A DNA stretch of 64,000 nt, from assembly GCA_963556145.1 (NCBI GenBank), contig OY744464.1, positions 1,488,001 through 1,552,000 on the forward strand, in the 5' to 3' direction. A model generated the notes under the pieces. It was given only the letters and a program-made list of their open reading frames with translations, searched no databases and was not told the origin of the DNA. Both the position numbers and the translations under genes were made by a program. Positions 11,701-52,531 of this stretch are shown here, in pieces. The first letter of the stretch is position 1; each line of letters begins with the position of its first letter. This stretch comes from Hygrocybe punicea. Lineage: Eukaryota; Basidiomycota; Agaricomycetes; Agaricales; Hygrophoraceae.

Positions 11701-11984
11701 AATGACGGTGCTTAGAGGATGTACGTACCATCAAGAATTGGATGCCGTTTGTGGGAGCCTGAATTAGGAGTGAATGATTCCGAGTCTCCATCTCCGTGCC
11801 AGTTCTCATCCATAAACTCTCGGTTGGCATCAGTCTGAATGGGTGGAGATCGTCGAGGTTGTTGTAGTATTGGAGGATGAATGGAATTCTTATGTTGCGT
11901 GTAACCAGAGCGGTTTTTGAAACTCCTGTTCTTGCCTTTACACAACCCCAGGTTGCAAAAAAATGTGCGAGATTGAGCTGACAT
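8790..11984 (-). CDS. Plavaka transposase (intact-looking)
   Basis: The first exon (from 11984, MSAQSRTFFCNLGLCKG) carries a C2H2-like zinc finger (CNLGLC...HKNSIH). After the intron at about 11668-11727 come conserved Plavaka blocks: FEIADFLFRRNQMPGEQIND, PPWMTTEYEVWHRNP and MFVPIILGSDKTTVSVGTGN. These are followed by FPRADIHELITSDLLHQVIKG, VHYRWVIEQFGSLNGLCSSI and a C-terminal region ending SNSLGAF at TGA 8790-8792. I checked two exon joins (about 11727/11668 and 9467/9413); both keep frame with GT-AG introns. The protein cuts and pastes the element by a DDE-type reaction in the nucleus (family knowledge; I did not place the three acidic residues). It is transcribed away from the partner gene starting at 12097. 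Confidence 0.85.
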
Positions 11985-32823: not shown

Positions 32824-32987
32824 ATGGATCGTGGTTCCTCTTTCGGCCAGGTCTGCTCCTGCGGAAGGGAGTTTACACAGCCTGGGTCTCTTAGGAACCA
32901 TCAGAAGACGTGCAAAAAAAGCAAAAAGAGATTGACAATCGCTTTGGCCAAAGCAAAAGAACTTATCGCAGGAAGGAAATGGAGAGA
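32824..32987 (+). pseudogene. 5' exon of a Plavaka transposase gene, cut by the Helitron
   Basis: MDRGSSFGQVCSCGREF opens a C2H2 finger (C11, C13, H26, C30 by my count), followed by the basic helix KKSKKRLTIALAKAKELIAG typical of Plavaka N-termini. After RKWR and two bases of the next codon the Helitron 3' end begins (32988). The codon and frame are completed exactly at 52532. The element's own terminal repeats were not found between 32409 and 32823. Confidence 0.75.
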
Positions 32988-33019
32988 CTAGTGGGGTGTG
33001 GGCCATTGCTTTGCATGGC
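32988..33019 (-). terminator. Helitron 3' terminus: hairpin plus CTAG
   Basis: Hairpin GCCATGCAAAGCAATGGC, then CCACACCCCA, then CTAG with T following. In Helitrons this structure marks the end point of rolling-circle replication. Confidence 0.8.
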
Positions 33020-33056
33020 ATGTTACTCATCCCTTCTTTTAGCAAGAGAACACATA

Positions 33057-36000
33057 TTAAGATTGAGCATATATAAACAGTACAGCATTATTACCATTAC
33101 ATGACAATAAATTAATATTTGAAAAGTCATCTATATCACCTTCATTAATACAAATTGATCTGGTTGATATACCATCATGAAACCATACCATACTGTTGAT
33201 GAATATGCGGGCAGTAAAATGTGCATCACCAAAGTACACAATTCCTCTCAATGTGTAAGCAGTGGATATGTCATCAATTGACAAGTTTATAACTTGACTA
33301 ATTATTAAATTCTCAATAGAGTCAACTGTAAACATGATTAGAGGTGGAATTTTGTTAAATGCAATAAATTTAGTAATCTCTCCCCAACACAATTGACATT
33401 TGTGCCGTTGTCTATTAACTATGATTTGAGCAAGACATGTTGAGATTGTTCCAGAAAATGAATATGAACAATGAAAGATGGCGTCACATCTATCATTTTC
33501 CAGAATGGTTATGTTTTCACAATTGATACATTTAAGACAAGTTGAAGTCATTGGTTCATTTGCTTTCATTATATAATGGGCCAAATCACTTATGGCAATG
33601 CCAACTTGACCATAAGGAAATATTTCGGGTTTATCTTGATGCAATAAATGTCTGATTGTATTTCTAACTGTTTCTAAATCTGTTGTGTGATTCTTGGATC
33701 GTTTGAATCCTAAGCTCAAAATCTTTAATATTTCATTGATGCTATTGAATCTTTTTTTCCAACTTGATGGATCTTCATTCCATATTGCTAGTAATATTGT
33801 AAAGAGTGAATCATAAGCACAGCTCCAATCTTCCGCATCCCATATAAACCCTTTTGGTTCATTTAATTCAATAGTACTTGTTTTTCGTCTTTTTTTCACT
33901 ATGGAAGATGAACTTACAACTTGTTGTAATTTTCGTTTTTTATTTTGCAATACATTGGCCGTCGAATTTTTATGAGTGACAGTGATTGGAACAGTTCCTT
34001 TTGCAGGAACAAAGTTGAGGTTTCTGAAATCTGCCTTTTGATTTTTGTTCATATGTTTAATTAATTGCCATGGAGAGGGCTGTGTTGTGTATTGATTTAG
34101 TTGCTCCGTGGCTTTCCATGCGATAGCATGATGAATGTTTTTTGGAATATATGACTTTCCTTTCCATTTTCTAAATTGATCAATGATAGAATTTCGCTGA
34201 TCTCCTTTGACATGGTCTGGTAAGAGTCCTTGATATTTCAGTTTGGTAATCTCATCAAGCAGTTCTAATTCTCTGAATTCCTGCCTGAGATATCCAGAAG
34301 CACCCCCAGTAATTACTTTAGGATCAAAGCCTTGCATGATGATAGTTCCTGCTGCAGAAGCACTTCTTGATAAGCAAGTATAATAGGATTGGTGGTTTCT
34401 ACAACTACTGAGGTCAACTACATTGTTAGGACGAGTACGTCCTTGACATGCATAATCAGTCATTGCAAAATTAGGTAGTACCAACACTTGTTCTCTTGAC
34501 AAAGATATCACATCATCATTGGGTAATGAGCACATGGTGGAAGTGACATGTTTTGTAATCGGCACAACATTTTCAGGAAGTCCTTCTATGTTAATTTTTT
34601 TTGGAGGATTCAATAATCTGACAAATAAAGTGTCCAGTACAGTTTGTTGCTCAGGACCTATTGCACTCTGCCAACCCACAACTATGCCCTCTGCTCCTTT
34701 GGTAATGCAGCACTCTGTTGCATCATTGTTCCTCAGCATCACTGGCATGCCTACACATAAGTCCAATCTTCCTGGTATATGATCAGAGGATGATGCATGT
34801 GGTTGGCTCCAAAGTAGCTTTTGGAGTGAAGGTTCCAATATCTTTGTGTGTCGAATAGGATCCAAAATTGTTGACATGTGATGAGATTTTCTTTTGCTAT
34901 TGGAACTAGTAGGATCATTCCATCTGTCTATGGAATAGAATGATGTTAATGGTCTCCTATTTTCAGCAGCAAAACGTTGAATACCAAGTTCATTGATTTT
35001 GTCTTTTTGTGCATTCAATGCAGTTATAACTGACACATTCCTGAATTTCTTTTGGGCTAATTTTGGATCATTTGGACCTTTTCCTGCAACACGTGTACGA
35101 AGAAATGCAATATCTTTGGGAGTACATGCTTTGTATCTCATGTTTTCCAAAGCAAGCCTCAGTTGGACATCTTCTTCTGACTGATTGGTTTGTCTCATAT
35201 TTTCACGTAATATAACAACTGTTGTTATTTGATGCCAAAGAGCTTTGCCTATAGCCGCTTCCTGATTTGCTATAGTTTGACTGGAATTGATTTGGACACC
35301 AACGGTTCCAGAGTATAAAGGAGCACCACTCATAGCTGGTGGAAGTTGGCCAAAATCTCCTGCAAATATCATATTAATGCCACCAAAGGGTTCATCATAA
35401 ACACCACGTGCTTTTGCACACTGAGCACTGATTTTATACATATCTCTGCAAGATAACATTGACACCTCATCAATGAAAATGTAATCCACACCATCAAGAT
35501 TGGCACGTACTTGTGCAAGGGAACGAGATGATCCTCCCTGATTAATTCCAAGAATAGAGTGATATGTGGATCCATTTACAAGGGCAGCAGCACCACCGGT
35601 TGGTGCAAGAACCACAAATCGATGATTTTCGTTGTGTTTACCAAAAAAACTAGTCAATGCTTTGATGACTTGTGATTTCCCTGTGCCTGCCATCCCACCA
35701 AGATACATGCGTAGCTTATCAGAACCGTTAATCAAGGTAGAGTGATTCGCAATGATATGAAATGCTCTCTTTTGGTCAGTGTTCAACTTGTAATCATTGA
35801 TAGTTACATCAATAAGATGACGATCAGCTCTGTTTGCAGGAATAAACATATGGTTGATGTATGCTGCATCCACTATCTTGACATCATTATATTGAAAATT
35901 TCCCAATTTATTTATGGTTGCTGTGTTGGTTGGTAAATTTTTATTTCTGTCATCGATGATTTCCTTTTTCTTTGCAAGGACTGCAGTTCTCCACAATTTT

Positions 36001-39000
36001 GCTGATTGTACTACAGGTGGTTCTATAGGTATCAACGGTCCTATATCTGGGGTACCATCAATACAATCATCGAGCCACCCTGACCTTTTCAAAGTTCTTT
36101 CAGCTATCAGCATTTGATCTTTCCTCTTTTGTCCTTTTTGACCAAGTTTCAGGAGTATTTCCGTGTCATTATTGTCTTCATCAATATTGTTGTTGAAGTC
36201 GTCGCCATTAAATGCAAATTCAGCATTGTGCATGTCATCCAGTTCATCAAGACCATTTGAGGTCGCCCATGAATACCTTATATTTGCAGTATTATTCTTC
36301 TGACGTTTAGCAGAGAAATCATCTCTTGCATCCAAACATTCATACCGCAGACCAAAGTATTTCATGATCTCTAGTTCTCTTTTAGAAAACTCGTGGTCTA
36401 TAAAAGCATTATCCCATGTTTGTAATTTACTTTTGAGTTCTTTGCCACTTCTCCATGGCTTGAAAAACGTTAACATTGTACAACAATAATCTTCTCGATC
36501 ACCATGGTCAGCCCTTGGCAAAGTGTTTGGAATAAAATTAGGAACTATGAAAGGATCATTCCCTTTCATTTTGGCATGGTGGGTAAGATATTGTGGATGA
36601 TTGGGATGTAAAGTATAATCATTTTCAAATTTTGTCAATTTATTAAGATCAACTTCATTTGTTTTATCAGCTATTTCTGTGCCTGCATGTCTATTCAAAC
36701 TATCAGGTTTTGGAATTTCATCTATCTCCATGAGTATATCATTATCAACGACATCAGACAAGTTGTCATCACTGGAATAGTCAACATTAGTAGGTTCAGT
36801 GCAAGAGTCAGACAAATCATCACAGCCTAGATTGTCAAAAATTTGGTTTTGCACTGGTTCTTTTCTGGCCCTTTTGGTCTTTGTTTTGGTGCGTCTTTTC
36901 TTTGGTTCCATAGTGGCAAGACGTATCCAGTCATACAGTGATACATTATCATACAAGGCGGGTCTGAACATATAATTATTTACTTTGGAAAGTCCAATGT
37001 ATGCGCCATTATTCTTACCAATAACAACCTTTTGTGCATTATTTTGGTCTTCACATATATTAGGAATTTCTTCATCAGACCATGCACTGATAACCTCTTT
37101 AACATAAGATCTCCAAAAGAATGGCACGAATTTATGACTGGTGTAGTGATCAGGATTTCCAAGGACATATAATGAAGCCATTGGAGCACCAATTTCCATT
37201 TTGGAGGTGAGTGAATTGACTATTTGTGTAAACAGCTTTCTGACTTTGTCTTTTCTTTTCAGGTCGCCACCAATCATTTCGGAATTCTTATCAAAAATAC
37301 TTTTTATCACTTCAAAAATGCTATAGGTCTTCAAGGAGAATTTTGTAATATAATCTGTTATGTATGCAACTATGGCCTTTATAGCAGTACCTGATAATAA
37401 GCTGGTCACATCAGAATTGCATCGTAGCATATATGTAACTTCAGGTGTCACCGTGTTCATCCAAGGTTCACCATGCTTGAGGTTGAGAGCACCAGTGTTA
37501 GGTTCTACAAAAGTTTGTTGAAAGATATCACGGGGAAATCGTCGTTTACATTCACCTTTCGAATTAAGACAGTATGGCTTTTTTTTGCCATCATGCCTGT
37601 TATGTACATTTAATCGCAATAAAAGATCATCTACAACATCTTGAAACCTTTGCCACCATGTTGATCTTTTGTTGTGATATTGACAATTCATGGAACAATT
37701 ATATGATGGTGGATCTGGCATGACACATGTTGGTGGTTGATATTCAGGTTTCGACATTGTCTGTTCCATTTTCTGTGATACCTCATCTTTAGAACCTGTC
37801 ATGAATTGTCCTACACACAAACTTTCCAAATATTCCACTAATCTTTTCTGAAAGTCAGAATTTTCACCCATAATTTTGTCACGTATTTCCTGAGGTGTAA
37901 GGCATCCCTTTATCCACAACAGCATATGAAGATGCAAGGTAAGACGTCCTTGTTCCTCTACCGTTGCATAATAACCTGATGTGTTTCCATACAGGCCAGG
38001 ATGAGATTCATTTATTCCTAATATATGTTTGATGAACATTTCAGTAGTAAAGTGAAAAAAGCGGGCTCCAGCAACTGGATTGTTTGCAATTAGTTTGTAA
38101 CAATCCTGGGGTAGACGTAGTTTAGGATAAAACTTTTCTTTGTTGTCAGCATAATATAAGCATAGTGGGTGATTGATGTCTGCAGGTGCAAAAGTGATAA
38201 ACCAAGTCGGAGCACCAATATAGGATATCAGAGACCAAATCTCATTTCGCATGTATTTCTTGTTAGTAATTGAACCTTTGACCTGACCAGCTACGTGATC
38301 CAGATCAGAAATGAGTTTATAGCATGCTTTCTCTTCTGATGTATCTGGTTTGACTCTATCACCTCTAGATAATCTTTTAGAGAGGTCATCCAAAACAGCT
38401 GTATTGATATTCATCAGGCGATTTGCAATATCGTTGAAATTATGTTTATTAGTCAACAAATATCCTCCGGTTGTACTGTCTTTGATTTGTTCTTGATTGA
38501 ATGCAATCAATGGAAAATAGGGATCGGTTTGAAATCTTTTGTCATGGTACATCAGGAGATGTCTTTTGTGCATCATATCACTGATGCTTAAAACATCATT
38601 GTCTATGCTGCTAATACCACCCAAGCCATATGGAAATAGGCAGGGAAACATCATAGGATATAACTGAGGATTATTAAAGAACGATTCTGGATTTCTAGCA
38701 TGGCTTATGGCAAGAACACCACCATGGTCATCTATCAAGTGCTTGGTCGCTCTAGCTATTAATGCCTTTGGACTTGTAATATCTAGATTTTCGCCAGTTA
38801 CTCCACTAACAACAAAGGGACAAGGCCCATCTTCCACACCATCTTCCACTTCATTGTCAAATGCACTAGTGGCTTCTGGTTCCTTATTTGTGTCTGCTGG
38901 TCGATATGCAACCACAACAGGAATTCCATGATCTGGATATTGTGCTAGATTTTCATAGGAGATATCTAAATCATAGTAATCCATGTGATTCAATTTCAGC

Positions 39001-40802
39001 CATTCTAAAGCTGCAGAAACTCGCCTTCGGCGAACCAATAAAGGCGTTCGCTCCATGTCTTCTGGAGTTGGTCTGGCAGGACCAGTGAAAATAAACGCTA
39101 GCACTTCATCAAGTTCTTTAATTGTTGGAGGCAACCGTTGATATATCTTTGGTGTTGGGTTTTGAAACATGATGGCATTTGCTTTCATTTTATGCATCCC
39201 AGAGGAGACACGAACAATACATTTGTTGTGACGAACACGGGCAATCAAAAGTTGTTCAGCAAATGTTAGATTTTGAAGTTGTGCAGGAATTCTTCCCATC
39301 CAAAGTCCATTCGCCAAAGCATATTTGGGAGTTTGGCCTTTATTCAGACTGAGCACACATGGTTTGCATATCCATTTACATGTGTCATCTAGCACTGGAC
39401 CTTTGATATCCTCTATTGGATCAGAACAATGATATTGTTCACATCTTGTGATTCCCATATTGTCTCTAGTTAATATTTTCAGATTAACCTTCGTCTTTGA
39501 CAATAAAGACATGTTTTTCAATGCAACCAATTGACCACATACAGCACACCCACTTTCTTGGAAACATTCAGGTGATGTATCTCTGCACCAGTTGCTGATT
39601 ATGGTTTCCTTCAATTCAATAGATGGAGGAGGAGGAGGAAATAATTGCTCATCTGACTTGTCCAATTCTTCTTTCATTTGAGCCTGAGTTTCTTCTTTGC
39701 CGCACTCATTTGTTTCTGTCATTTTTTGTCTTCTGTACCACTGTTTACACAGGTCTTTATGTGATTTAATATCATGCACATGAAAAATAGAAACATGAGT
39801 ATCACAAGCTGAACAATTATGCCTCATTAATGCCACAGATAGATCTTGTCCATGTAATCTTCGTAATGTCTTTGACAAATATATACCATGTATTGTTGTT
39901 ATTTCACCAATATCCTTCACTGTCAAATTTGGCAGAAGTTCATGTAAAGGCATTTTAACACATGCATATGTTTTTCTATCTTCATATAAAGTGTTGGCTG
40001 TTTGTTCATCAATATGCCCCACATATTCGAATAATATGTCAGAATCATGGTTGATATTATTAGACGGTAGCATAAAAGATTGAAGAAAGCTAAACTTGAA
40101 TGTTGGTATTCGTTTACCACCACCAATGTAGTCATATCTATGAACGAAATTTATATATAAAGATTTAAACAAGTGTCCGAATAAATTCAAATTGAACACA
40201 ATTATGTTTGAACGGCTATGCCGTATTATGAAACATAGTGTGGTCCACAGCAACGTTGCATGTGATAGAGAACTAGTAATACAATGAAATAAATATGTTT
40301 TGAAATCATGTCGTCTCAATAGCGATCGCATGAGCAATACTTTGATCATTTTACAACGACATTGGACAGTGATAGGTTTGAGAAGACAATACAAAGCAAA
40401 GAGATATTTAGGAGGTAAGAAATATCTTCTGGCATATTGAATAGAACGTATTCGCATTTTGAAGGCGCTATTTTTAAATGTAGTCCAAACGAATAATGGA
40501 TCGACTGTCAAGTTATCTTTTGTTTCTTTTGTTATTCCAATGATCTTTACATATAGTGTTGCATTTATTTGCATCAATATTGTTGCATCGCCCTGATCTG
40601 GGGCCAACTCATGTTCTATGAGTTTTCTTTGAAAAACACCCAATTCTTGGGTCAAGGTCGATATCACAGGACATGAAATTGGTTCAGGAGAGATATACAT
40701 AAGTTTGTCTTGGCATAGTTGTGGAAACAATGTTGCATTTGCAAGGAAATATAGATAAGTCAAACATGCAATGCAGACACGGATGATGTTGTGGGGATTC
40801 AT
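33057..40802 (-). CDS. Helitron Rep-helicase with C-terminal USP-like cysteine protease domain
   Basis: A single uninterrupted ORF of 2581 codons, AT-richer than its flanks. The N-terminus has Cys/His clusters (HNCSACDTHVSIFHVHD near 325 and ECFQESGCAVCGQLVAL near 415). The Helitron helicase-like Rep region has the HUH motif LTLHLHMLLW near residue 955. A Cys-rich segment then precedes a Pif1/RecD-like helicase with Walker A GGMAGTGKSQ near 1702, Walker B FIDEVSML near 1774, GDFGQLPPAMSG, and late motifs MTDYACQGRT and YTCLSRS. From about 2320 a further domain carries EDWSCAYDSLFTILLAIWN (candidate catalytic Cys), paired CxxC segments, and YFGDAHFTARIF near 2522 (candidate His), matching the Cys box/His box layout of ubiquitin-specific proteases. 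Rep nicks and joins ssDNA and the helicase unwinds it. The protease role is unknown. Confidence 0.9.
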   Translation of the reverse strand: MNPHNIIRVCIACLTYLYFLANATLFPQLCQDKLMYISPEPISCPVISTLTQELGVFQRKLIEHELAPDQGDATILMQINATLYVKIIGITKETKDNLTVDPLFVWTTFKNSAFKMRIRSIQYARRYFLPPKYLFALYCLLKPITVQCRCKMIKVLLMRSLLRRHDFKTYLFHCITSSLSHATLLWTTLCFIIRHSRSNIIVFNLNLFGHLFKSLYINFVHRYDYIGGGKRIPTFKFSFLQSFMLPSNNINHDSDILFEYVGHIDEQTANTLYEDRKTYACVKMPLHELLPNLTVKDIGEITTIHGIYLSKTLRRLHGQDLSVALMRHNCSACDTHVSIFHVHDIKSHKDLCKQWYRRQKMTETNECGKEETQAQMKEELDKSDEQLFPPPPPSIELKETIISNWCRDTSPECFQESGCAVCGQLVALKNMSLLSKTKVNLKILTRDNMGITRCEQYHCSDPIEDIKGPVLDDTCKWICKPCVLSLNKGQTPKYALANGLWMGRIPAQLQNLTFAEQLLIARVRHNKCIVRVSSGMHKMKANAIMFQNPTPKIYQRLPPTIKELDEVLAFIFTGPARPTPEDMERTPLLVRRRRVSAALEWLKLNHMDYYDLDISYENLAQYPDHGIPVVVAYRPADTNKEPEATSAFDNEVEDGVEDGPCPFVVSGVTGENLDITSPKALIARATKHLIDDHGGVLAISHARNPESFFNNPQLYPMMFPCLFPYGLGGISSIDNDVLSISDMMHKRHLLMYHDKRFQTDPYFPLIAFNQEQIKDSTTGGYLLTNKHNFNDIANRLMNINTAVLDDLSKRLSRGDRVKPDTSEEKACYKLISDLDHVAGQVKGSITNKKYMRNEIWSLISYIGAPTWFITFAPADINHPLCLYYADNKEKFYPKLRLPQDCYKLIANNPVAGARFFHFTTEMFIKHILGINESHPGLYGNTSGYYATVEEQGRLTLHLHMLLWIKGCLTPQEIRDKIMGENSDFQKRLVEYLESLCVGQFMTGSKDEVSQKMEQTMSKPEYQPPTCVMPDPPSYNCSMNCQYHNKRSTWWQRFQDVVDDLLLRLNVHNRHDGKKKPYCLNSKGECKRRFPRDIFQQTFVEPNTGALNLKHGEPWMNTVTPEVTYMLRCNSDVTSLLSGTAIKAIVAYITDYITKFSLKTYSIFEVIKSIFDKNSEMIGGDLKRKDKVRKLFTQIVNSLTSKMEIGAPMASLYVLGNPDHYTSHKFVPFFWRSYVKEVISAWSDEEIPNICEDQNNAQKVVIGKNNGAYIGLSKVNNYMFRPALYDNVSLYDWIRLATMEPKKRRTKTKTKRARKEPVQNQIFDNLGCDDLSDSCTEPTNVDYSSDDNLSDVVDNDILMEIDEIPKPDSLNRHAGTEIADKTNEVDLNKLTKFENDYTLHPNHPQYLTHHAKMKGNDPFIVPNFIPNTLPRADHGDREDYCCTMLTFFKPWRSGKELKSKLQTWDNAFIDHEFSKRELEIMKYFGLRYECLDARDDFSAKRQKNNTANIRYSWATSNGLDELDDMHNAEFAFNGDDFNNNIDEDNNDTEILLKLGQKGQKRKDQMLIAERTLKRSGWLDDCIDGTPDIGPLIPIEPPVVQSAKLWRTAVLAKKKEIIDDRNKNLPTNTATINKLGNFQYNDVKIVDAAYINHMFIPANRADRHLIDVTINDYKLNTDQKRAFHIIANHSTLINGSDKLRMYLGGMAGTGKSQVIKALTSFFGKHNENHRFVVLAPTGGAAALVNGSTYHSILGINQGGSSRSLAQVRANLDGVDYIFIDEVSMLSCRDMYKISAQCAKARGVYDEPFGGINMIFAGDFGQLPPAMSGAPLYSGTVGVQINSSQTIANQEAAIGKALWHQITTVVILRENMRQTNQSEEDVQLRLALENMRYKACTPKDIAFLRTRVAGKGPNDPKLAQKKFRNVSVITALNAQKDKINELGIQRFAAENRRPLTSFYSIDRWNDPTSSNSKRKSHHMSTILDPIRHTKILEPSLQKLLWSQPHASSSDHIPGRLDLCVGMPVMLRNNDATECCITKGAEGIVVGWQSAIGPEQQTVLDTLFVRLLNPPKKINIEGLPENVVPITKHVTSTMCSLPNDDVISLSREQVLVLPNFAMTDYACQGRTRPNNVVDLSSCRNHQSYYTCLSRSASAAGTIIMQGFDPKVITGGASGYLRQEFRELELLDEITKLKYQGLLPDHVKGDQRNSIIDQFRKWKGKSYIPKNIHHAIAWKATEQLNQYTTQPSPWQLIKHMNKNQKADFRNLNFVPAKGTVPITVTHKNSTANVLQNKKRKLQQVVSSSSIVKKRRKTSTIELNEPKGFIWDAEDWSCAYDSLFTILLAIWNEDPSSWKKRFNSINEILKILSLGFKRSKNHTTDLETVRNTIRHLLHQDKPEIFPYGQVGIAISDLAHYIMKANEPMTSTCLKCINCENITILENDRCDAIFHCSYSFSGTISTCLAQIIVNRQRHKCQLCWGEITKFIAFNKIPPLIMFTVDSIENLIISQVINLSIDDISTAYTLRGIVYFGDAHFTARIFINSMVWFHDGISTRSICINEGDIDDFSNINLLSCNGNNAVLFIYAQS

Positions 40803-41890
40803 GAGGATTTGTGACAGTAAGAGGAAACACCGCCCATTTAACTAGTCAAGTGGTTCGGATCATGAATAACAATTAACACAATGGGATTGATCATATGACA
40901 TTATATAATTTGTAAGCTTTTCCCAAAACACCATAAGGCGTGCCTGAATCTTTAGAAATCTGTGTTTACTTTTTTTATTCCATTCTATGTTCCTGTGACA
41001 TGCCTTGATACAGGCCAAAAATGCATCTGTATCATGAATAGCTGCCTTACGATCTTATTAGGGGTCTGGCTGACAAGACATTGATCAAACCGACTGAGAA
41101 GAACAATGGTACCCCCTTTTAAGATATTTTGTGGATTTAATCTTCAGAGTCTCAGTGATATTTATTTCTGGCTTGCTCAACAGACAAAACAGGTATTGAA
41201 GTTGAACAACCAGGCTGTTTGACAACTGTGCATATTTGACAATTGCTTGGTAATTCATGGAAATTATCATTGTTCTTCATCCTTGTCAGAAATACATTGT
41301 CATTTTTATGGAGCTGTACGTATCATTCCCACACAAGTATACTGTATTATTCTGGTACCAAAGAGTCATAGCTCCCCTTGGAGTGACAGTTATATCTTCC
41401 ACTACAAGAGGGGGTTTTGTTACTCTTGTATCATTGTATCCTCATTTAATAGGTCCATAAAGTTCGTGATTCTGGTTTCTTACATATATTCAATTTGAAT
41501 TTTCATTAGCCCGAATGAGAGTCATCTCAGGTTGTCCTTCTCAAGTTGAGTGTGTAGGTGGTTGTACAACTGAACTGAAAGTAATGCATTCACCAGGATA
41601 TATTTTAGACAAACAGATTTTCAGTCAACAAGATTGATGCCTTATGCTGTATCTATGCTCACTATCATGCTCAATTCTTATGGTCATAGGACAGTAACAC
41701 AAACCATTTTTAACGGAGCAAAAAGAAATACATATATAGAAACTGTACAAATGTTAATAGTAGCGATGTATGAGGAGGACATTTGAGGGCACAGATTGTC
41801 ACCAAGTTTCCAGAAATCAACGACTGGGATACAGTTTTTTTAGTCAAATATAATGAATACTCCACAAAAGAAGGACTTACTCCTCCAAAA
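40803..41890. other. Rep-helicase upstream region, gene-free
   Basis: AT-rich, with no coding ORF. It should hold the promoter of the Rep-helicase gene (minus) and the 3' end of the next gene. Confidence 0.5.
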
Positions 41891-43814
41891 TTAAGGCCCG
41901 GGATCAAGTTTGGATGTCGATGGCTTGGGAGATGAAGGCCTCGTTTGGCTTGGAGTAATGGAGAGTAGGATTTCGGGTGGAACGATGTTGCTCCAATCCA
42001 CATCCATTGATGAAGCGCTGGGCTCTGCAGGGGTCGATGACTGGTGGCGTGACGATGCACGCGTATTGGGACGGAATCCTAGGACATGGAGAAGATCAGA
42101 ATTGGAATATATACAGCCTATGATGTAATGTTGAAATACATACCCAGAGTCGGAGACTTCTTCGGTGGCTTCACCAGGTTGAGTTTCTCTACGATAATGC
42201 CCGCTTGCTCCGAAGCAACATCCAATTTCCTCCTCTTTGCCATCTCGCCATCCTCGTGACCATCGCTGGGAGACATCTTTTCAGGTTTGGGAGATCCGTC
42301 ATCGTTGTCCATGGTTATATCATTATCAACATCCAACAACCCCGCCCACTCTGGTCCTAAAATGTCCAACTTCGCGGATTCCGGTGCCACAACATCCGGC
42401 TCGGGGGCGATGGGTGGCTTAATCTCCATTGTCAATTTCTCCGATGCCGATTGCCGGGTTGTGCACGACGACCCAATTTCAACAGCGACTGCGAGATGTC
42501 AGTGCATTAATCATAACAAGGTGAGCAACGTACGCATTTGGGCCTTAGACCGCTTCTTCTTTACCGGGGCTACGTCCTCCTCCATCTTTATGTCGTCTAT
42601 ACATGAATAAATGTGTTGGATCATCGTTTTGATATTCGGAATTCAATAACTCACCCTCATCGTCGTCCTCGGCTTTGGACTTGATTGTGCGCTCTGTCAT
42701 GATGAAGGGTTTGCATGTATGACAATCACAGACAATGAAAGTACTTACTGGACTTGGGCTTGGGCTTGGGCTTCTTTTTGTCCTTCTCGGACGAATTGTC
42801 TGCGCCACCTGAATATTCAATAGATCTATACACCACTATGGTTGAAAATTTGTACAAACCAGCAGAAGATGCCTTCTGTTTTTTGACCGATTTTGACTTG
42901 GCTTTGCCCTTGCCCTTGCCCTGGGCAACTGGCTCCTCTGCAAATGTACTATATCATTAGCACAATCACACATGTAATTCTAGATCACACCTTCATCATC
43001 ATCTGCCACATCAGAATCGACGAGGACACTATGTCCTTTACACCAAGCAATAACATGACCGATGATCTCGAGCTTTGTGGCATCCGGAAGCCCACCGAAT
43101 GACCAATTTGCCAAGGTTCCGCTGTGCCATGCTGGCACAGATTCATCGTATTTTGCCCAATCTATGATGCCAGACGTGAGAATTCATTTGGCCATAAATA
43201 CATATATACTTACCTAGATCCTCGGGCTTGATCTCGGTGTTCACAGCGCCATGTTGAATCAAAGCCGATGGAGAATGTTTCCCGACATAAAATTCTTTCA
43301 GGAGCCAATCATCGAAGATCTTGCTTCGCCAGTCACGGGTAACCTCGTTTGCCCGTTTCGCCACCAAGACTTCTGCCCAAATTTCGTCCATGACGGTGTC
43401 GGTATACTTGAGGTAATCCCGAAGTGAATCGGTCCCTTCCTTATCATTTTTGACGTAGTCCGGCGAGTAGTTGGGTGCCTTGTTGTATGCGATGGCTGCT
43501 GTCGCGTAGATGTACATATCCATTTGATAAATCAAGCGACGGAGCGGTTCCTCGTATCGTTCGGGGATTTCGCGCCATAACTCACCTCGGGCGGTGGCAT
43601 CGTGGGGGTGTGTCTTCAGTACATAGAGATTACGAGAAAATACGGGAATGGTGCCGGATTCCTTGTTGGGTGCCGGAATCTTGGGCGGGACCATGTACTG
43701 GATTTGGAAGATGCGATGTAGCTCCTGCAGCTTTTTGGGCGGCGCATCAGGCCAGTACTTGAAGGCGGCGGGATTGACAGCGGGAGTCGAGGTTTTGACG
43801 ACTGGCAAGGACAT
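41891..43814 (-). CDS. Helitron cargo gene A: lysine-rich nuclear-type protein, unknown
   Basis: The first exon runs from MSLPVVKTSTPAVNPAAF (ATG 43812-43814) through a globular part (WPDAPPKKLQELHRIFQIQY, ERYEEPLRRLIYQMDMYIYA, RSKIFDDWLLKEFYVGKHSP). Then come about six very short exons rich in Lys, Glu, Ser and Gly (GKGKGKAKSKSVKKQKASS, EKDKKKPKPKPKSS, ETDDIKMEEDVAPVKKKRSK). A Pro/Asp-rich exon (MEIKPPIAPEPDVVAPESAK) follows, and a last exon ends PSTSKLDPGP at TAA 41891-41893. Its exon phases agree where checked. Charged runs suggest a nuclear, chromatin- or nucleic-acid-associated protein. I do not recognise the globular domain. It is divergent from gene B, with a repeat-containing spacer between them. 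Confidence 0.6.
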
Positions 43815-44224
43815 GGTAGATGAAATAAAAGTTTTTTGGTCGACGTGTGAGGCGATTTGAGAGCAAAAGAAAAGGGCGGATTTATTACTCAACGCTCCAG
43901 ACTATGAATACAGATGTCACGACCACGTGACCAGATCAATCGCCACATGTTCGACCTCATGTTCGGCTTCTTTGCATGCATAAACAACAGATCTATTTAT
44001 TTATGTTTTTGATGTGGCTCGAGCTTAGAAGTTGTCCAAAGCTAGTAATTGCACGCAGAAAACCGACATGTGCAGCGTATGGAATATTTTTCAGTTGGTA
44101 AGGCAATAAATCGAGTTAATTCGTTCGATGAATATTCACGGACTGGTCCGTTGACGGAAAAGCACAACAAGTCTGACTTGTTGGATGGATGTAGAAGGAC
44201 TAGATATACTACAACAAACATGTT

Positions 44225-44495
44225 GTTGGGTGTGTTCGGTCACCGGACATGTTTGGTGGATGTCAATGTACGACTAGATATACTACACCGAACACATCGA
44301 ACATGTTCGGTGTGTTCGGTGGAGATGTTCGGTGGATGTCAACCAATGGTTGTGACTGGATATACCACACCGAACACATCGAACATGTTCGGTGTGTTCG
44401 GTGGAGATGTTCGGTGGATGTCAACCAATGGTTGTGACTGGATATACCACACCGAACACATCGAACATGTTCGGTGTGTTCGGTGGATATTGCTC
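44225..44495. repeat. 82-bp tandem repeat with nested palindromes
   Basis: Two full units start at 44324 and 44406 (GATGTTCGGTGGATGTCAAC) and are nearly identical; a diverged unit precedes them. Each holds the near-palindrome CCGAACACATCGAACATGTT followed by CGGTGTGTTCGG. It lies in the intergenic region between the divergent genes A and B, so it may act on both promoters. A related palindromic stretch is at about 51338-51400. Confidence 0.85.
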
Positions 44496-44738
44496 TTTCA
44501 AGACATTTAAATGATTACATTGCTGATCAACGTGTTTGGCACGTGTTCGTTGTTTTATCATTGCCACTCTTGTCAGGTGACATAATTCCGACGTCTTATA
44601 ATTAGAAGGTTTGTGGAATCGTCACCACCCGCTATCAACCACCCTGAAAGTAATCAATCATTAAGGTATTGATGTATTAATGATATCTGTGTCTGTTCCT
44701 CATACCATCCATCCGAAATCCTGCCTAGGTCCACAAAC

Positions 44739-46561
44739 ATGCCATATAAGAAGGAACTTGGTTATGAACTTTGCATGCACATCTGCCCTGGTCGAAAATG
44801 CGACTCTCCAAAAACGAAATGTCTTTTGTGGAAGAAGGAAGGCAACTCCTGCCAAAGACATGTCGGATCCGCACACCAACATCCCAAATGCGTTTCGTCT
44901 GGAATTTGTCCGCAGTCGGTATGTCTTGGTCGCAACATACGTGAAAATTCGCAGGGTGTCCGCAATGCGACGGCCGCGGAACTTGATCTCCTTCCACGCA
45001 AAAGGCTATCATCCGACTCTGAGATGGAAACATCATCTGACTGTGAAACGGAACCGCCAACCACCGTAAGCAACAATGAACGCCGTATAACCACATTAAG
45101 CAACAATGACGGCCGTGTTTTCAAAATCCTTTTTATCCTTGACCCAACAACTCGTATCGCGAGCAAAGCCGCAGCCATTAACGATCTTGCATTCGTCACC
45201 ACGACCATATCCGACATCGAACTCGATACCATTGCCCATCTTGATGGTTACGTCCATATCATCAAGTCATACAAGAGTCGCTATTCAGCATGTATTCAAG
45301 AATGGGTAATGTCTATTGTTTAATTTGTGGATTGTTGATACTGAAACATATTTCACAACAAACAGGTTTATATCGGAATACGACTACATCATGAGGATGG
45401 AGCCCGGCGCTTCAATGTCAAATACATATTTTGGCCCGAGTTCCTTCATGCAATACTTCGCCATCAAGACAAAGGCGATACGTGGCAAAAGTTCGCATCG
45501 GCAGATTGTGTATTTGGTGGTGTGGATATGGGAATGTCATACATGTAAGATTGACATCGCTTTAATTAATTCTGCTCCGTTTTCGCTGCATTATACTGAT
45601 GTCTTGACAGCGGTAACCAATACGGATTGACACTGGAAAATGTGTCGATTTTCATGACTGGCATGGACGAACTCTGTCGAACGGCACACATCTGGCCGCC
45701 TCCGAAGCAGATGAACACGGTCCATTCAAAATGGATACAAAATCAAAACTTGCTTCATGTCGCTTTGAATGTAACGCATATGATACGCCCTCAAGCAAAA
45801 TTATTAAATGATGGCGACCAATTCCCACCGAATATTGTCTTGAAACGGACACACAGCGACACCGGTCATCACGTCCTATTACCCGGCGACGCCAAGCGAA
45901 ATTGGGAATACATGCGCAATAACTGTGAGGTTCCAGGTTCACGTTGGTTTGGGCAAACGTACATCGAACCACTGAGTAAGATGGGCAAATGGCGTGTGTT
46001 TCTAGTTGGTGGAAAGGTCGTGTATACGGTGCACACCCTGTACAACAAGGAAAGCAAGTCCTGGAAGTGGGATATCGTCTCAAGTTTCTATACCTTGGAT
46101 GAGTTAAGGTGAGTGCCCTTCATTTTCACTTGTCATATCATATGTATGATTGTCTTAACTTTGTCAGAATATTTCAAACGCAGGGGACTCTATTGAAGAC
46201 GGTGGCGTGCAATCCGGACAGGGGTGCCATTTCTATTCGAGAGCAAGGCAGAAACGAGTTCTTCGACTTTGTCCAAAAGACCTATGAAGGGCTTTATGCG
46301 ATAGAGTCCAATATGGTTGGTGGAAAACCATCGATGAGTGTTTTTTGCCGTATGGACATATCGCTCATTGTGGATTCCAAAACGGATACTGTGTCCTATT
46401 TCGTGAACGAGGTGGAACGTTATCACACATGCAGCCTCTGGTCGAACATGAAGTCAGGTCCGAAATCCGTTCGAGCACCCATTGGCTCATTAGCAGACAC
46501 TTTTGCAGGGGTTTTCTATAAATGGTTGATTGACATCAAAGGTCCATACTCATATTTGTAA
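44739..46561 (+). CDS. Helitron cargo gene B: ATP-grasp-like protein with N-terminal Cys cluster
   Basis: Four exons. Exon 1 (MPYKKELGYELCMHICPGRK) has many Cys (CPGRKCDSPKTKC, CQRH, CVSSGICPQSVC), probably metal-binding, then an acidic/Ser linker and FKILFILDPTTRIASKAAAI. Exon 2 (VYIGIRLHHEDGARRFNVKY) and exons 3-4 give the C-terminal catalytic-like core: NIVLKRTHSDTGHHVLLPGD, SRWFGQTYIEPLSKMGKWRV, FLVGGKVVYTVHT, SVFCRMDISLIVDSK and VSYFVNEVERYHTCSLW. The order K..(G-rich)..Q.YI....WRVFLVGG..F.R.DI....NEVE is that of the ATP-grasp fold (Lys for ATP, Asp and Asn-Glu for Mg). Substrate unknown. Start ATG 44739; stop after GPYSYL. No lesion seen. Confidence 0.6.
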
Positions 46562-46648
46562 TATTATCTGTACAGTCAATGGATCGGTTCGCGTTTATTT
46601 CACAAAACAGACATAAGATACAAATATAAATGATGCTAAGTGGAGCAA

Positions 46649-48696
46649 TCATTTCGGCACTCCCAAGACCATGACCCATTGCACATTGAGTGAAATGCTC
46701 TTCATCATGTCATCTACACGCTTGAATGTATTGATGGTGTGTCCAACAACGACACAGGATCCTGCAGGGATATTGTGCGGGAAGATGGGTAGTTGCTGGA
46801 GCGATATGAGAGTGGACGTGAAGTCCGCTTTGACTTTGCGTGCATCATAGATGGGCACTGACAACACATACTTAAGATATCAATTTATATTAGACGACCG
46901 GATGCTTACCAATATCGTAAAATGATAGAGCGGCCTTATGATAAGATGGAGTGGGTCGACGAGTGAATGGACTAAGTTGTACATTTTTGGATGTCGATGC
47001 CTCTATGAAAATCGATTAGGAATTACAACTAAAAATGATTAATGCACAAACTGGGAGATGTATCCATTCCACTTGCTGTGGTCGTTGAGAAGGACACATA
47101 GTCCTTATACAGTTGGGCCCGAAATTCGGACTCGCGAATCACCATTCCAATAGCACCGACATATCGCTCCCATTCCCCTTGAAGTAGTGCACCCTGTATA
47201 ACCTTGACCGGCTTTGTATTGCCACCAATCTTGGGCTCATCGAGAAAGCAGGACTCCACTATGATGACCGATGTAAAGATCGTCGGCATTCCACCTCCGA
47301 CTGCATGAAAGAAGTTGCGACCAAATGCACCAGTGGAGATATGGGCAGGGTTATCACGAGAGAGATTAGAGTACCTCCCAGATCTATCAAATGTAATGGC
47401 GGAAACCAATAACCTATATTATATCCAATGAATCGACCAAATTGACCTCAAATTGCTGTTCAAATAACGTACTTTCTGTTGATCTTGTAGATGTCAGTGA
47501 TGATATCACTGAACTGTGGGTTGCCATTCCCAATTGCACTGGACCAGGATACCATTGCTGCTGCCCTGAATGGTTATGAGTAAATGACAAGGGTATAAAT
47601 GCAATTGCATACTTGATATTGACACAGTCTTGGTAGGTGTCAACAAGTTGAGGATCCCTCGTGCCAATATCGGACTCATCAACGTTCGGAGATGGTAAGC
47701 TAGATTCACGACATCTACATCAAACACCACGGTGTAATAAGATCCAACACACCTGGTGATCTGCGTCAGTGCATAGGTCAGATCTCCTTCATCGCCACTG
47801 GAGCCTTTATCATCGTCGGTATCATCGAGCATGATGGCCTTCGTGGACTTCGACTTCTTGGATGGAGTATTAGAAACGCTGTTACAATTAATGAATGAGA
47901 ATATTCATATCGGCACGTAAAATACACACGAAATTGGCTTATCGGGGTTCTTCATCAAGGCTACTTTGCGACGATGCCTAAACAGTCAAACGATTTGTTT
48001 GAACAAATGGATATGTCTATGATAACCGAACAACTCACTTAGAACCGTAATCCTCTTCCTCTTCCTCTTCCTCCTCTTCCTCACCGTCTCGTGATTGATT
48101 AGATGCAGCTTTCAATTTCTTGGTGGGGGAAGGCGTTTTACTATAGATAACCTGTCAATGATGAGACAATACCTATGAAAAATATTTACACATTGTCGTC
48201 ATTGTCGGTGACATTGGGAGATGACATTTGACGTTTCTTTCCACTGTAACAGATTGATATCATGGTGGATATATTTGATATTGAAACACTAACACGTCTT
48301 TAACGTTGCGAAACTTGACGGAATGCCTAGGAGGATATTGATATTTGTTAACTCATATTGGATAACAATGATATGTGATTATAGATACCTTGTGAGCATT
48401 GACGGTGCCATTACACTGCCAGTGCTTTGAATACTGATGGCATCATCATTAGCATCAGACAAAGCCACACTGTCCATTGGTCAAAAATAGATAACGATTA
48501 AAACGATGACACATACATATCATCATCAGCCCAAGTCTTGATGACCTTCTTCCACTTCTCGATTGTTGCAGAAGGCCGTCTTTAGTGCATGCAATAGAAA
48601 CTTCAGTTATACCGAGTAAAATAGGGATGCATACATGGTGGCCTTGGATTTTGCTTTCGAGTTTGATTTCGTGGCGGTGGACTTCTTGGGAGGCAT
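46649..48696 (-). CDS. Helitron cargo gene C: acidic/basic N-terminus plus conserved C-terminal domain, unknown
   Basis: It starts MPPKKSTATKSNSKAKSK (ATG 48694-48696), followed by seven or so tiny exons: RPSATIEKWKKVIKTWADDD, RHSVKFRNVKDV, a poly-Glu run before DYGSK, and SVSNTPSKKSKSTKAIMLDD. The larger exons then form a globular part: TDIYKINRKLLVSAITFDRS, GRNFFHAVGGGMPTIFTSVI, FLDEPKIGGNTKPVKVIQGA and QGEWERYVGAIGMVIRESEF. The last exon is VPIYDARKVKADFTSTLISL to IPAGSCVVVGHTINTF and ISLNVQWVMVLGVPK, with TGA at 46649-46651. The beta-rich ending (VPIYDAR, SCVVVGHTINT, N.QWVMVLG) recurs in Agaricomycete proteins of unknown function. An OB-fold/ssDNA-binding role is only a guess. It converges with gene B (88 bp between stop codons). 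Confidence 0.6.
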
Positions 48697-49126
48697 TGGA
48701 GAGCGGTAAAAGTTGATGGAATAGTGGATATCATCTCCACTCACGCTTTAAATCACTCAAAAACAATAAGCTATGAATTTAAGATGAATCGGTGAATCCA
48801 AAACTTCAACAATAACATCAGAGGATCCACCATTGGCACATGCTCATATACCAAACGAGGCTTCTTGGGCCATGTACTCCATGCAAAGCGCAAAGGTATG
48901 CATGAAAAATGGATGACTGTCCACATGATATTCGCCACAAGTTTATACTGGTAGATTTCATGAATTGTTGACAAATTCAATTAAAGTTAGGAATGGAGAC
49001 TAAACAAAAAGGGGTATTCATAAAACAAAAATGCATAATGCCAAATTAAGAAACATGGGGTATACTAACAGATATTGATGCATAATGGATAGGGGCTAAT
49101 TTTAATGCTGTGCACACATATACTGT

Positions 49127-50614
49127 GATGCAGAATTAATGCGGAAAAGCTGGAGTACATGCTTGACTATACCATATCCAAACCAGACAGCTGACAACCA
49201 ACATTATGTGGTGCATTTGAAAGACATGGAAAGGATCCGTATTATGCAAAATGACGCAAACTTCAATATTGAAGAATGCAATACAAAAACAAAAGCAAAA
49301 CGGATCCTGAAAGCTATCATCACATGGACATCAAAAGCCAATATGGATATGATCGGTGATGGTGGAAGATATAATCCATGAAGTGGACGAAATTGTGCCA
49401 CGCAATATACATCTCACCACTGCTTTGTACGTGATGGACAACTATTACAACTTCAAGGGTGCATGTTAGCAATATCCACCATATATATACTGGCTAGTAT
49501 TTGACACCAAATTGACAGCTGAACATCTGCAGGAAATCATATCTGCACGCTTAGACGATGATGAAAGTCAGCTTGCGAAGGCCACAAACGTAAGTCATTG
49601 GATTTGAAAAGGTATATCATATTGACCGCATTGCCAGATTGCAAATGTCAATATTGTGCATGTTGACTCTCCAAATTGCTGGAAGTTTACACTTCCAACC
49701 AATGATGAATCCGAACATCAAGAATTGGTATTAAGTTTGCAAGCGATTTTGGTGGCGAAAGATCTTCCACCCATAACAACCAGGTATGTGCTAAATTCGT
49801 ATCAATTCCTTGAATACCATTCTGATGAATCACTGCAATAGTCAACCAGAACGCCGAACGCCCTTCATACGTCAAAGCATAGTCGTAACTGGCCTTGATA
49901 CAACGGGCTTTCAATCCTATATCGATAACCTTCGGATTCTGCACCAGAAACTGGCTCGTCAATTTCCTGACAAAGCAATGCAAGCTTTTACGCCTTCTAC
50001 ATACATGGATTACATGGCACTCGCAATAGGAACCCGATATTTCACTGATCGCCGACATGACAACACTTCCTCTCACATTCCATTCGAGTATGTCATCGAT
50101 CCAAAAGGCATATTAACCTCACTTGCGAATTCCCGCTACTTTCATGGCCAGGACAATTGCGTACTTTATTACAAGTTGAAGTCTGATAGAAATCGACATT
50201 GGTGAGTGACGATGAATTGGGATCACATCCCTACTGATGGAAATATTTATTAGCTTCATTCCAACAAACCCAACTTGCTTTAGAATCGGTGATATAGTGG
50301 AGGTTCAGTTTACAATATCGGCAGTTCCGGTAAAGAAGGATAAATTCAAGATGATTCTGAATCTACGGTCATTGGCACTAGTAGACAGTGACTTCACAGA
50401 GGTAACACTTTAATACATCAAGAATTAAACGAATACTGATGTATATTCTCAGGAAGCAACTATGATTCGCAACAAGACAGCTTTGCCTACACCAACTACA
50501 CAGCCCAGAATAGCCATCAAACGGCATGTTGGGTATGTGGAAGAGGGTAATGATGCAGAGGGTGTTGTGGAAACAAGGCAACGCTTCTATAATATGAATA
50601 TAGACCAATGCTAA
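49127..50614 (+). CDS. Helitron cargo gene D: fungal family with FRIGDIVEVQ motif, possibly damaged 5' part
   Basis: Supported exons are: a segment containing YIYWLVFDTKLTAEHLQEII (about 49470-49589); NIVHVDSPNCWKFTLPTNDE (about 49638-49782); QSIVVTGLDTTGFQSYIDNL to MDYMALAIGTRYFTDRRHDN (49842-50201); then FRIGDIVEVQFTISAVPVKK and LRSLALVDSDFTE, ending FYNMNIDQC at TAA 50612-50614. The joins at 49782/49841 and downstream keep frame. Further 5', a frame reading IIHEVDEIVPRNIHLTTALY meets TAG at 49467-49469 just before the first clear exon, so the start is uncertain and this end may be decayed. I recognise the C-terminal pattern (R.GDIVE.Q......K..K....LR...L.D) from repeated Agaricomycete proteins. 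Its beta-rich look might be an OB-fold, but that is unproven. Confidence 0.5.
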
Positions 50615-50700
50615 TGTATAATATTGTATGTGTACTCAACCCGTTGATATGTTACAGCTGTTTTGCTATCTGATGGCAGCAACTGCACCTTTTTGAATCG

Positions 50701-51172
50701 ATTGAGAAATTTGGACTTGGTAGAATTTTGGGTGCTGTGTTTTGTATCTCATGAAATACTATTTGGATTAAGATGGTTATACAGGGAAGTTGTACTATGT
50801 CTTGAGGACTATCTACGCCTGTAATTACATTTGAACAATATTTAGGATATAGTGAGTTGTTGATGAAATAAAAGGTAGACCAGTACTTTTTGACGCCCAA
50901 AATGATACTGTCAAATTATGACATCGAAAGAGCTCATATGAAGAAGACTGGAGGGAGAAGGTTGTTCATCTTTTCAAGGCCTAGAAGTACATATACCATA
51001 TTCTTCTCTATTTTTGTCCTTTGAGCCGTCATTGCATCTGTACTATGTTTGTCTGTCACTAGGCTCGAAATACAACCAGAATCATAAACTGTATAACCAT
51101 CTTGATCCAAGCAGTATTTCATGAGATACAAAACACAGCACCCAAAATTCTACCAAGTCCAAATTTCTCAAT
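50701..51172. mobile_element. 472-bp non-autonomous element with 84-bp inverted arms, inside the Helitron
   Basis: The left arm 50701-50784 (ATTGAGAAATTTGGACTTGG...) is the reverse complement of 51089-51172, with few mismatches. The 304-bp centre has no ORF of note. Target duplication not resolved. Confidence 0.8.
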
Positions 51173-52531
51173 GTGCCTTTTTGCTGAAAAGATGAGAATG
51201 AGCTATTGAAAATCCATTATCTACCTATAATCCAGATTTAATGTTTGCATATTCTCTTTGTATCACCACTGGATAGCTAACTATATCCAATGTTCAATGT
51301 GTACTGATCACATATGACAATAGTAACCTGAACATATTGACCGAACACATTGACCGAACACACCGAACATGTCCAATATGTTCGGTTTGTGGTCCATGAA
51401 ACTGAATTACAATTCATTGTACAAATTCAATCAAACTACCTTTACTTCGCATATGTGATGCATAACCTTTTGTTCAAAGACGTGTCATATTAACTGGACG
51501 AAATCTGCAGGTACAACAAGCATATTTACTCCTTTATATCTAAATTGATGACGAAATTCACTGCTGTACTGAGAAGCCTATGTTGCTATGTTCCTGCATT
51601 GATACCATTGGATTGTATCTTGGCCCAACCTTCACTTCTTCCCATCCTGCCATAAATATGATGCTTTGCTATTTAATAATTGCTTTCCAATCATATTATT
51701 TTGTTCTGGCATGATTGGAGCTTCTCTTGAACTAATTATGTTCCTTGTCCTTGTGTCTGGATCTCGAATCATTATGCAGTTGACTGCATTTATTGTACTA
51801 TTTTCGTGTCCTTTGATGAAACATCAACAAATTATACACCTCACCCTTATGAGCCCATTCAATGAATACATTGAAACAGCATCTGGGGTACCAATGTGTG
51901 AACTCCATAGTTTCTCAATGTTGATAGCTCTGCTTGCACTTTCTCTGCTTCAATATGGGATGTCAAATATGGCACATAATGCACATCCAACAACTGTCCA
52001 GACTTTTATTTCTGCTATTATTTGTGCAATTGCAATGCCCCGGATTCAGGTAGGGACATCTGCAAAACACTTTGTGCCGAAAAATGATGAACCCGCTGGT
52101 TAAACCAGTGTTAAACCTGTTCCTTGTGATTCCAATGTACATAGCTGTTATATGTATCTGTAAACAAAGATATCATATCTGGTTCATTCAGTCTATATTG
52201 CACTGGCAATTCCTCAGAATACAGCAGGGATACTAGTTGGACAATACAGAACTCTCAGTACTGTTCAGACAGGTTTTCAACTCATCCATATGTCATAATG
52301 CACATTACACCAACAAAGAATACGATTATTGTCATGAAGTCGACTTAGCAGTGGACTACACTTTCCCAACTTGGCACCTTTGATCTGGTGACCTTATTGT
52401 TCTTGCTCATTTGAGACAACAAATTCTCACAGTTACAAAGTCAGCAGTCACACGGTTTCAAATTTATTCACAGGGCTTCAAAATTGTTCCCACAGTTTGC
52501 AACAATTGTTCCCACGGCTTGGCAAATTAGA
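51173..52531. other. Helitron 5' region, gene-free
   Basis: Contains a palindromic patch related to the 44.3-kb repeats (51338-51400, CCGAACACACCGAACATG) and a hydrophobic ORF (51666-52103) without an ATG start that I do not believe is a gene. Near the 5' end are three short repeats of the type CACGGNTT/CACAGTTTGC (52450-52520). Confidence 0.5.

Follow-up and report, generated by a model that had tools for sequence, protein, structure and literature searches.

HELPO1, a Helitron of Pleurotus ostreatus, ranges from 1.5 to 13.7 kb, encodes a Rep-helicase (RepHel) of about 1400 amino acids (aa) and carries one to four extra genes, of which capB has also been reported next to RepHel in a small number of other basidiomycetes (PMC4289320). 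The 64,000-nucleotide stretch of Hygrocybe punicea DNA analysed here, referred to as the window, contains a Helitron nested in a Plavaka transposase gene. It resembles HELPO1 in being a basidiomycete Helitron with a RepHel, a 3' end of the form CT[A/T]G with a hairpin, and extra genes. The extra genes of HELPO1 are placed downstream of RepHel (PMC4289320), whereas here four genes lie upstream; moreover, the present element measures 19.6 kb, encodes a RepHel of 2594 aa with a predicted ubiquitin-specific-protease (USP)-fold domain, and has the 5' end TTACGAG. The Helitron2-like FoHeli elements of Fusarium oxysporum are similar in their terminal hairpins (at both ends in FoHeli1/2), recent activity and proposed self-insertion, but they measure about 5 to 11 kb and have other terminal sequences and asymmetric terminal inverted repeats (PMC5148889), where our element has a CTAG 3' end and no clear repeats of this kind. 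Animal Helentrons with VTD or OTU domains also carry a deubiquitinase domain in the Helitron open reading frame (ORF), although with those two folds and an AP endonuclease (PMC9741609) rather than a predicted USP fold and no AP endonuclease detectable by Pfam. Finally, TET/JBP-bearing fungal Helitrons show that an enzyme gene shared by several lineages of transposons can be carried as an accessory (PMC12730594); here the accessory set consists of four genes, A to D, and no TET/JBP match was obtained in our Pfam scans. In the literature searched, with subscription journals mostly outside its reach, no description was found of a USP fold in a RepHel, of gene-block exchange between Helitrons or of an ATP-grasp protein linked with a Helitron, and neither giant Helitrons nor deubiquitinases in fungal Helitrons led to a paper on the present case apart from PMC9741609.

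We consider it probable, at roughly 0.85, that positions 32988-52590 hold one autonomous-type multi-gene Helitron, inserted in Plavaka and belonging to a recently amplified family whose members exchange gene blocks. The element, its ends and its flanks are as follows.

32988..52590, minus strand: the Helitron, which measures 19,603 bp; its 5' end is 52590 and its 3' end 32988, as delimited by shared-sequence limits, termini counts and end pairing
32988..32991, minus strand: 3' terminus CTAG, with the target T next on the Helitron strand; on the plus strand A is the last base before CTAG in 18/18 distinct left flanks (window included)
33002..33019, minus strand: 3' subterminal hairpin of 18 nt, 10 nt from CTAG
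52566..52588, minus strand: hairpin at the 5' terminus, reading ACGAGTCCCTATAAGGGAATCGT in Helitron orientation
32824..32987, plus strand: N-terminal coding exon of Plavaka (left flank), ATG at 32824, A32987 being the target base; supported by paralogues
52591..53898, plus strand: continuation of Plavaka (right flank), supported by PF18759 and by paralogues

On its own strand the element starts with TTACGAGTCCCTATAAGGG... and ends with ...CCCCACTAG, with a hairpin at both ends. The sequence shared between copies (...GACTCGTAA) is kept through 52590 and then diverges in 29 of 29 other fetched loci (compared over window positions 52332-52650, the window's own locus not counted). These loci come from the best 40 of 370 candidates, a choice that favours long matches, and all 40 match to base 52590 or beyond. 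The 34-mer at 52557-52590, taken alone, occurs 269 times in the genome with at most two mismatches, and a 33-mer of the 3' end 349 times; the reversed control of each gave 0. The family, with its hundreds of termini, has been amplified recently in Hygrocybe punicea. The 3' end conforms to the CTRR terminus with subterminal hairpin of the Helitron superfamily. The search for asymmetric terminal inverted repeats gave 8/11 and 9/12 matches at a distance of 35 nt from the 3' terminus, with p of 0.10 and 0.04 in shuffles (best of six lengths), and with p between 0.04 and 0.70 over the six lengths such repeats were rejected as a clear feature.

An earlier note on this DNA had placed the 3' end as we find it, the Plavaka exon running to A32987 and CTAG starting at 32988, followed on the plus strand by 10 nt and the 18-nt hairpin. 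Nesting in a Plavaka copy is likewise upheld by the N-terminal exon to the left and, to the right, by the Plavaka body, where ORF 52774-53898 matches PF18759 with E 6.8e-11. The 5' end had been put at 52531, from a Plavaka frame apparently restored at 52532. This is ruled out: shared sequence extends to 52590 in the 29 other loci, so that the in-phase frame from 52532 falls inside the Helitron. A join at 52531/52532 retains 59 bp of the element, which add 20 codons between the Plavaka exons; the single intervening TAG does exist, but among these 20 codons, which are absent from 5/5 Plavaka paralogues. The latter, recovered with joined flanks at 77-84% identity, have the left exon directly joined to the right exon (GAAACCTTCACYGAATCAG). 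The supposed TC terminus gives way to TTACGAG, and the C before TC is not supported as a non-canonical junction. A second Plavaka transposase ORF, which matches PF18759 with E 1.2e-57, occupies minus-strand positions 10920-11711.

Positions 32988-52590 are one insertion. All 29 other upstream loci, chosen by a match to 40800-41500 and reaching 43000 (window itself not counted), are collinear over 39300-43000 with 99.0-99.84% identity to the window. In three loci carrying the cargo, collinearity reaches deep into the 5' part, interrupted by internal indels and one duplication. On contigs C1-C3, where each of 41 listed exact 5' ends was paired with whichever of 89 exact 3' ends lay closest on its own strand, 16 of the 41 found their partner at 18-22 kb. 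Together with the intact RepHel inside, these results bear out the proposal of a single and unusually large Helitron; its size becomes 19,603 bp instead of 19,544. Four same-strand pairs of matches to the sequence upstream of RepHel, 5.8 to 9.9 kb apart, were also seen (C2:6334081/6343954, C3:6185430/6192320, C34:2744587/2750396 and C35:5963447/5972903) and may account for some elements of 26-30 kb. A non-autonomous element of 2.0 kb (L090, C1:5085900-5088100) has related termini, sharing only its 5' 237 bp at 86% and its 3' 203 bp at 72%; its interior was not found in the window.

Among 30 distinct right flanks (window and L090 included), the plus-strand base is T in 15, C in 14 and A in one, the window, so that in Helitron orientation the element is preceded by A, G or T. 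Canonical Helitrons (Helitron1) insert between A and T. The T-T site typical of Helitron2/Helentron was found in 1/30 flanks. Insertion occurs without target duplication in the one self-insertion legible at both borders: copy L035/L077 sits inside a second copy, at the point equivalent to window position 37348, and comparison with the window as the empty site gives GATTATA^TTACAAAA. Two further self-insertions, each seen at one border, are L028 at 37599 and L006 at 43992. The unique variants include C to T changes at 94/998 CpG sites versus 50/5633 other C sites, both strands considered, and this CpG-concentrated decay suggests cytosine methylation of the family.

The RepHel features are the following.

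33057..40841, minus strand: RepHel ORF of 2594 aa, no introns, with DUF6570, Helitron_like_N and PIF1 (Pfam)
33057..33875, minus strand: predicted C-terminal USP-fold domain of RepHel, from a fold match and invariant Cys/His/Asp positions

Helitron_like_N and the PIF1 helicase stand in one ORF, as in the Helitron superfamily. Residues H970, H972, Y1160, Y1164 and GTGK (1719-1722), to which we presumptively ascribe motif roles, are invariant in 42 aligned proteins. The 18 copies scored (window included), of 1662 first-look candidates, all span the 2594 aa at 99% or more, and 14 of them are stop-free. No AP endonuclease, expected at a Helentron C-terminus, was matched by Pfam in the 2594-aa ORF. 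The predicted structure of the C-terminal domain has a USP fold and was matched to USPs; Cys, His and Asp positions are invariant in 15 aligned members and, by resemblance to USPs, would be catalytic. The USP Pfam profile matched neither the window domain nor the 15 members, and sequence searches with the domain gave nothing convincing: matches to uS3 (E 0.0002) were regarded as fortuitous, in contrast to the match of the fold. In viral contigs a single pattern match appeared, which was not confirmed as a RepHel relative. The structural prediction points to a USP-type domain belonging to RepHel itself, possibly with deubiquitinase activity.

The 11.7 kb upstream of RepHel hold four further genes that are most likely proper to the element and not chance captures.

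42140..43814, minus strand: model of gene A, spliced and coding for about 470 aa, with an uncertain 3' end; from exon chaining, metagenome relatives and genome copies
44272..44487, no strand: 82-bp tandem repeat separating gene A from gene B, within the interval that holds the A|B type boundary, with indels at or near it in three fetched copies
44739..46561, plus strand: gene B model, 545 aa, four exons, putatively ATP-grasp-like; from weak Pfam matches, metagenome relatives and genome copies
46649..48696, minus strand: model of gene C, with many introns and about 460 aa, its precise splicing uncertain; from exon chaining and genome copies
49434..50614, plus strand: model of gene D, about 298 aa, its precise splicing likewise uncertain; from exon chaining and genome copies

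The models were obtained with a simple exon-chaining finder, for which the reversed control scored at most 8.3. Accepted scores are 33 for D, 62 for C, 83 for B (3' end over-extended) and 126 for A (both ends over-extended); for gene A the minus-strand model, at 125.8, was trimmed to the MSLPVV start, and gene B was built by hand with four exons and GT-AG introns. Weaker models, with scores of 3 to 13, were not accepted as genes. Metagenome relatives of gene A show 88, 70, 92 and 42% identity, and gene B has two partial ones at 44-48%. Gene B and its two relatives match the ATP-grasp families RimK, GSH-S_ATP and R2K_3 with E values of 0.0038 to 0.19, all too weak to pass the cutoff. Genes A, C and D gave no clear Pfam domain, and a search of the PDB with gene C returned weak, low-complexity-like matches only. 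Unique variants (synonymous/nonsynonymous) amount to 10/12 in A, 8/4 in B, 4/6 in C and 0/2 in D; in RepHel, over 1572 codons covered, 26 are synonymous and 58 nonsynonymous, with 2 stops. Pairwise pN/pS values against the window (A 1.75, B 0.15, C 0.48, RepHel 1.72) were set aside in favour of the unique variants because window-specific changes are tallied many times in them.

The genome was then compared gene by gene, using one exon per gene. For each gene 150 candidates were scored, of 242 (A), 246 (B), 282 (C) and 352 (D), so that the type counts below are lower bounds and absent neighbours mean little. All identities are to the window, and neighbouring genes were joined by distance and strand. 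Rows of gene B fall at 93-100% (113), 79-92% (13) and 57-63% (24), those of gene C at 91-100% and 79-83%, and those of gene D at 83-100% and 68-71%. With 1 for window-like and 2 for divergent, and the classes of B, C and D given in that order, the 75 elements with all four genes comprise 66 of type 111, eight of type 122 and one of type 222. The 108 B-C pairs are 1-1 (86), 1-2 (18) or 2-2 (4), never 2-1, and the 119 C-D pairs are 1-1 (90) or 2-2 (29), with none mixed. Three 122 elements (C1:1646504-1665860, C1:2129655-2148938 and C2:3903609-3922958) possess both exact termini and measure 19,356, 19,283 and 19,349 bp. In 8 of 14 rows with gene B at 57-60%, the adjoining gene A is at 94-97%. For two loci with divergent gene B, C1:1038524 and C2:303649, there is an exact 3' end (C1:1026341 and C2:291576) at a distance of 12.2 and 12.1 kb, compared with 11.75 kb in the window; their RepHel pieces of about 1 kb show 94.7 and 96.1% protein identity, and their gene A 95 and 96%. 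The A|B boundary falls between 43,814 and 44,739, where the 82-bp tandem repeat sits. Hence RepHel-A, B and C-D are blocks that have each had a history of their own within elements of one architecture. Gene B also occurs in a third type, 62-63% identical, at C3:7763366, C35:5615502 and eight more loci, with no gene A neighbour among scored rows. Genes B-D or C-D doubled in tandem (C35:1921192/1927505, C34:147490/153232 and C40:1672977/1678414; spacing 6.3, 5.7 and 5.4 kb) look like internal duplications.

Several observations, besides the partial scoring of gene candidates, weigh against this reading. The 5' terminus is TTACGAG and not the TC of canonical Helitrons (Helitron1). The window site, A^A on the plus strand, runs contrary to the pyrimidine rule; genome-wide, six exact 5' ends are followed by a purine, always A, versus at least 100 exact 5' ends among the matches listed. 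The A-run at the true junction counts four A in the window versus three in all five paralogues, which puts the Plavaka frame off by one; an extra A acquired before or after the insertion would explain the shift, at either time. Unit-length elements are a minority of ends, because only 16/41 pair at 18-22 kb: 13 other exact 5' ends pair at 22-45 kb, six at 2-5 kb and six have no partner within 45 kb, while 56 of the 89 exact 3' ends lack an exact partner. The splicing of A, C and D comes from prediction, and the finder score alone is no proof of a gene, since an antisense plus-strand model over gene A (43062-44510), not accepted as a gene, reaches 27.5, near gene D. The pN/pS values from unique variants (A 0.34, B 0.14, C 0.45, RepHel 0.58) derive from small counts. 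As regards the mosaics, a single complete 222 element occurs among scored rows, and on C1-C3 only two of seven divergent gene B rows have an exact 3' end at a distance of about 12 kb.

The 19.6 kb might instead be a composite, in which a short RepHel-only Helitron of about 8 kb, with its 5' end near 41 kb, lies beside unrelated repeats. RepHel alone does fill the first 7.8 kb, and the fungal Helitrons described in PMC4289320 and PMC5148889 span 1.5 to 13.7 kb. A 5' end near 41 kb, which the earlier note had also envisaged, is nevertheless rejected: it appears in none of the 29 other loci running collinear across 39300-43000, and with the three cargo loci and the 16 end pairs this makes a composite highly improbable. 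Genes A-D could also be recent passenger captures of host genes, carried without use. Helitrons do capture genes, A, C and D have no assigned function, and near-identical copies fill the scored rows, masking any parental host copies outside Helitrons. We hold this to be unlikely, as gene order is kept where B, C and D are only 57-60, 79-83 and 68-71% identical to the window, the frames are mostly open and pN/pS of gene B is low.

The mosaics, in turn, might reflect unequal evolutionary rates, C and D diverging while RepHel and A do not, instead of exchange. Only one complete 222 element is available, and with just three type combinations (111, 122, 222) the four-gamete test does not indicate recombination, which speaks for unequal rates. 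However, gene B is 95-99% identical to the window in the eight 122 elements and 59% in the 222 element, for which D stands at 68-71% and 69%, respectively; a single set of rates cannot yield both patterns, and we regard rates as quite an unlikely cause. In the favoured explanation, a Helitron would have entered a copy of the Plavaka transposase gene without duplicating the target. Its RepHel would recognise the 5' hairpin end (TTACGAG) and the 3' hairpin with CTAG, and rolling-circle transposition would deliver a copy joined into mostly R^T sites. The USP-type domain might protect the transposase or strip host ubiquitin marks, and A-D presumably serve the element. Related lineages may swap blocks A, B and C-D between elements through recombination, conversion or template switching.

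We lean slightly towards a wider view, that of a fungal lineage of giant five-gene Helitrons in which RepHel-USP and A-D keep a fixed order over deep divergence while the 5' blocks are exchanged, giving mosaics that share one pair of termini and are comparable to modular phages. If true, rolling-circle transposons of eukaryotes can persist as stable elements of several genes, equipped with accessory functions of their own, the genes of such an element are shuffled as blocks, and a third kind of deubiquitinase-like domain joins the VTD and OTU of animal Helentrons. Because it harbours many near-identical copies, some of them self-inserted, with 14/18 scored RepHel frames open and CpG decay in the copies, Hygrocybe punicea is a natural system for the study of Helitron activity, target choice and host silencing.
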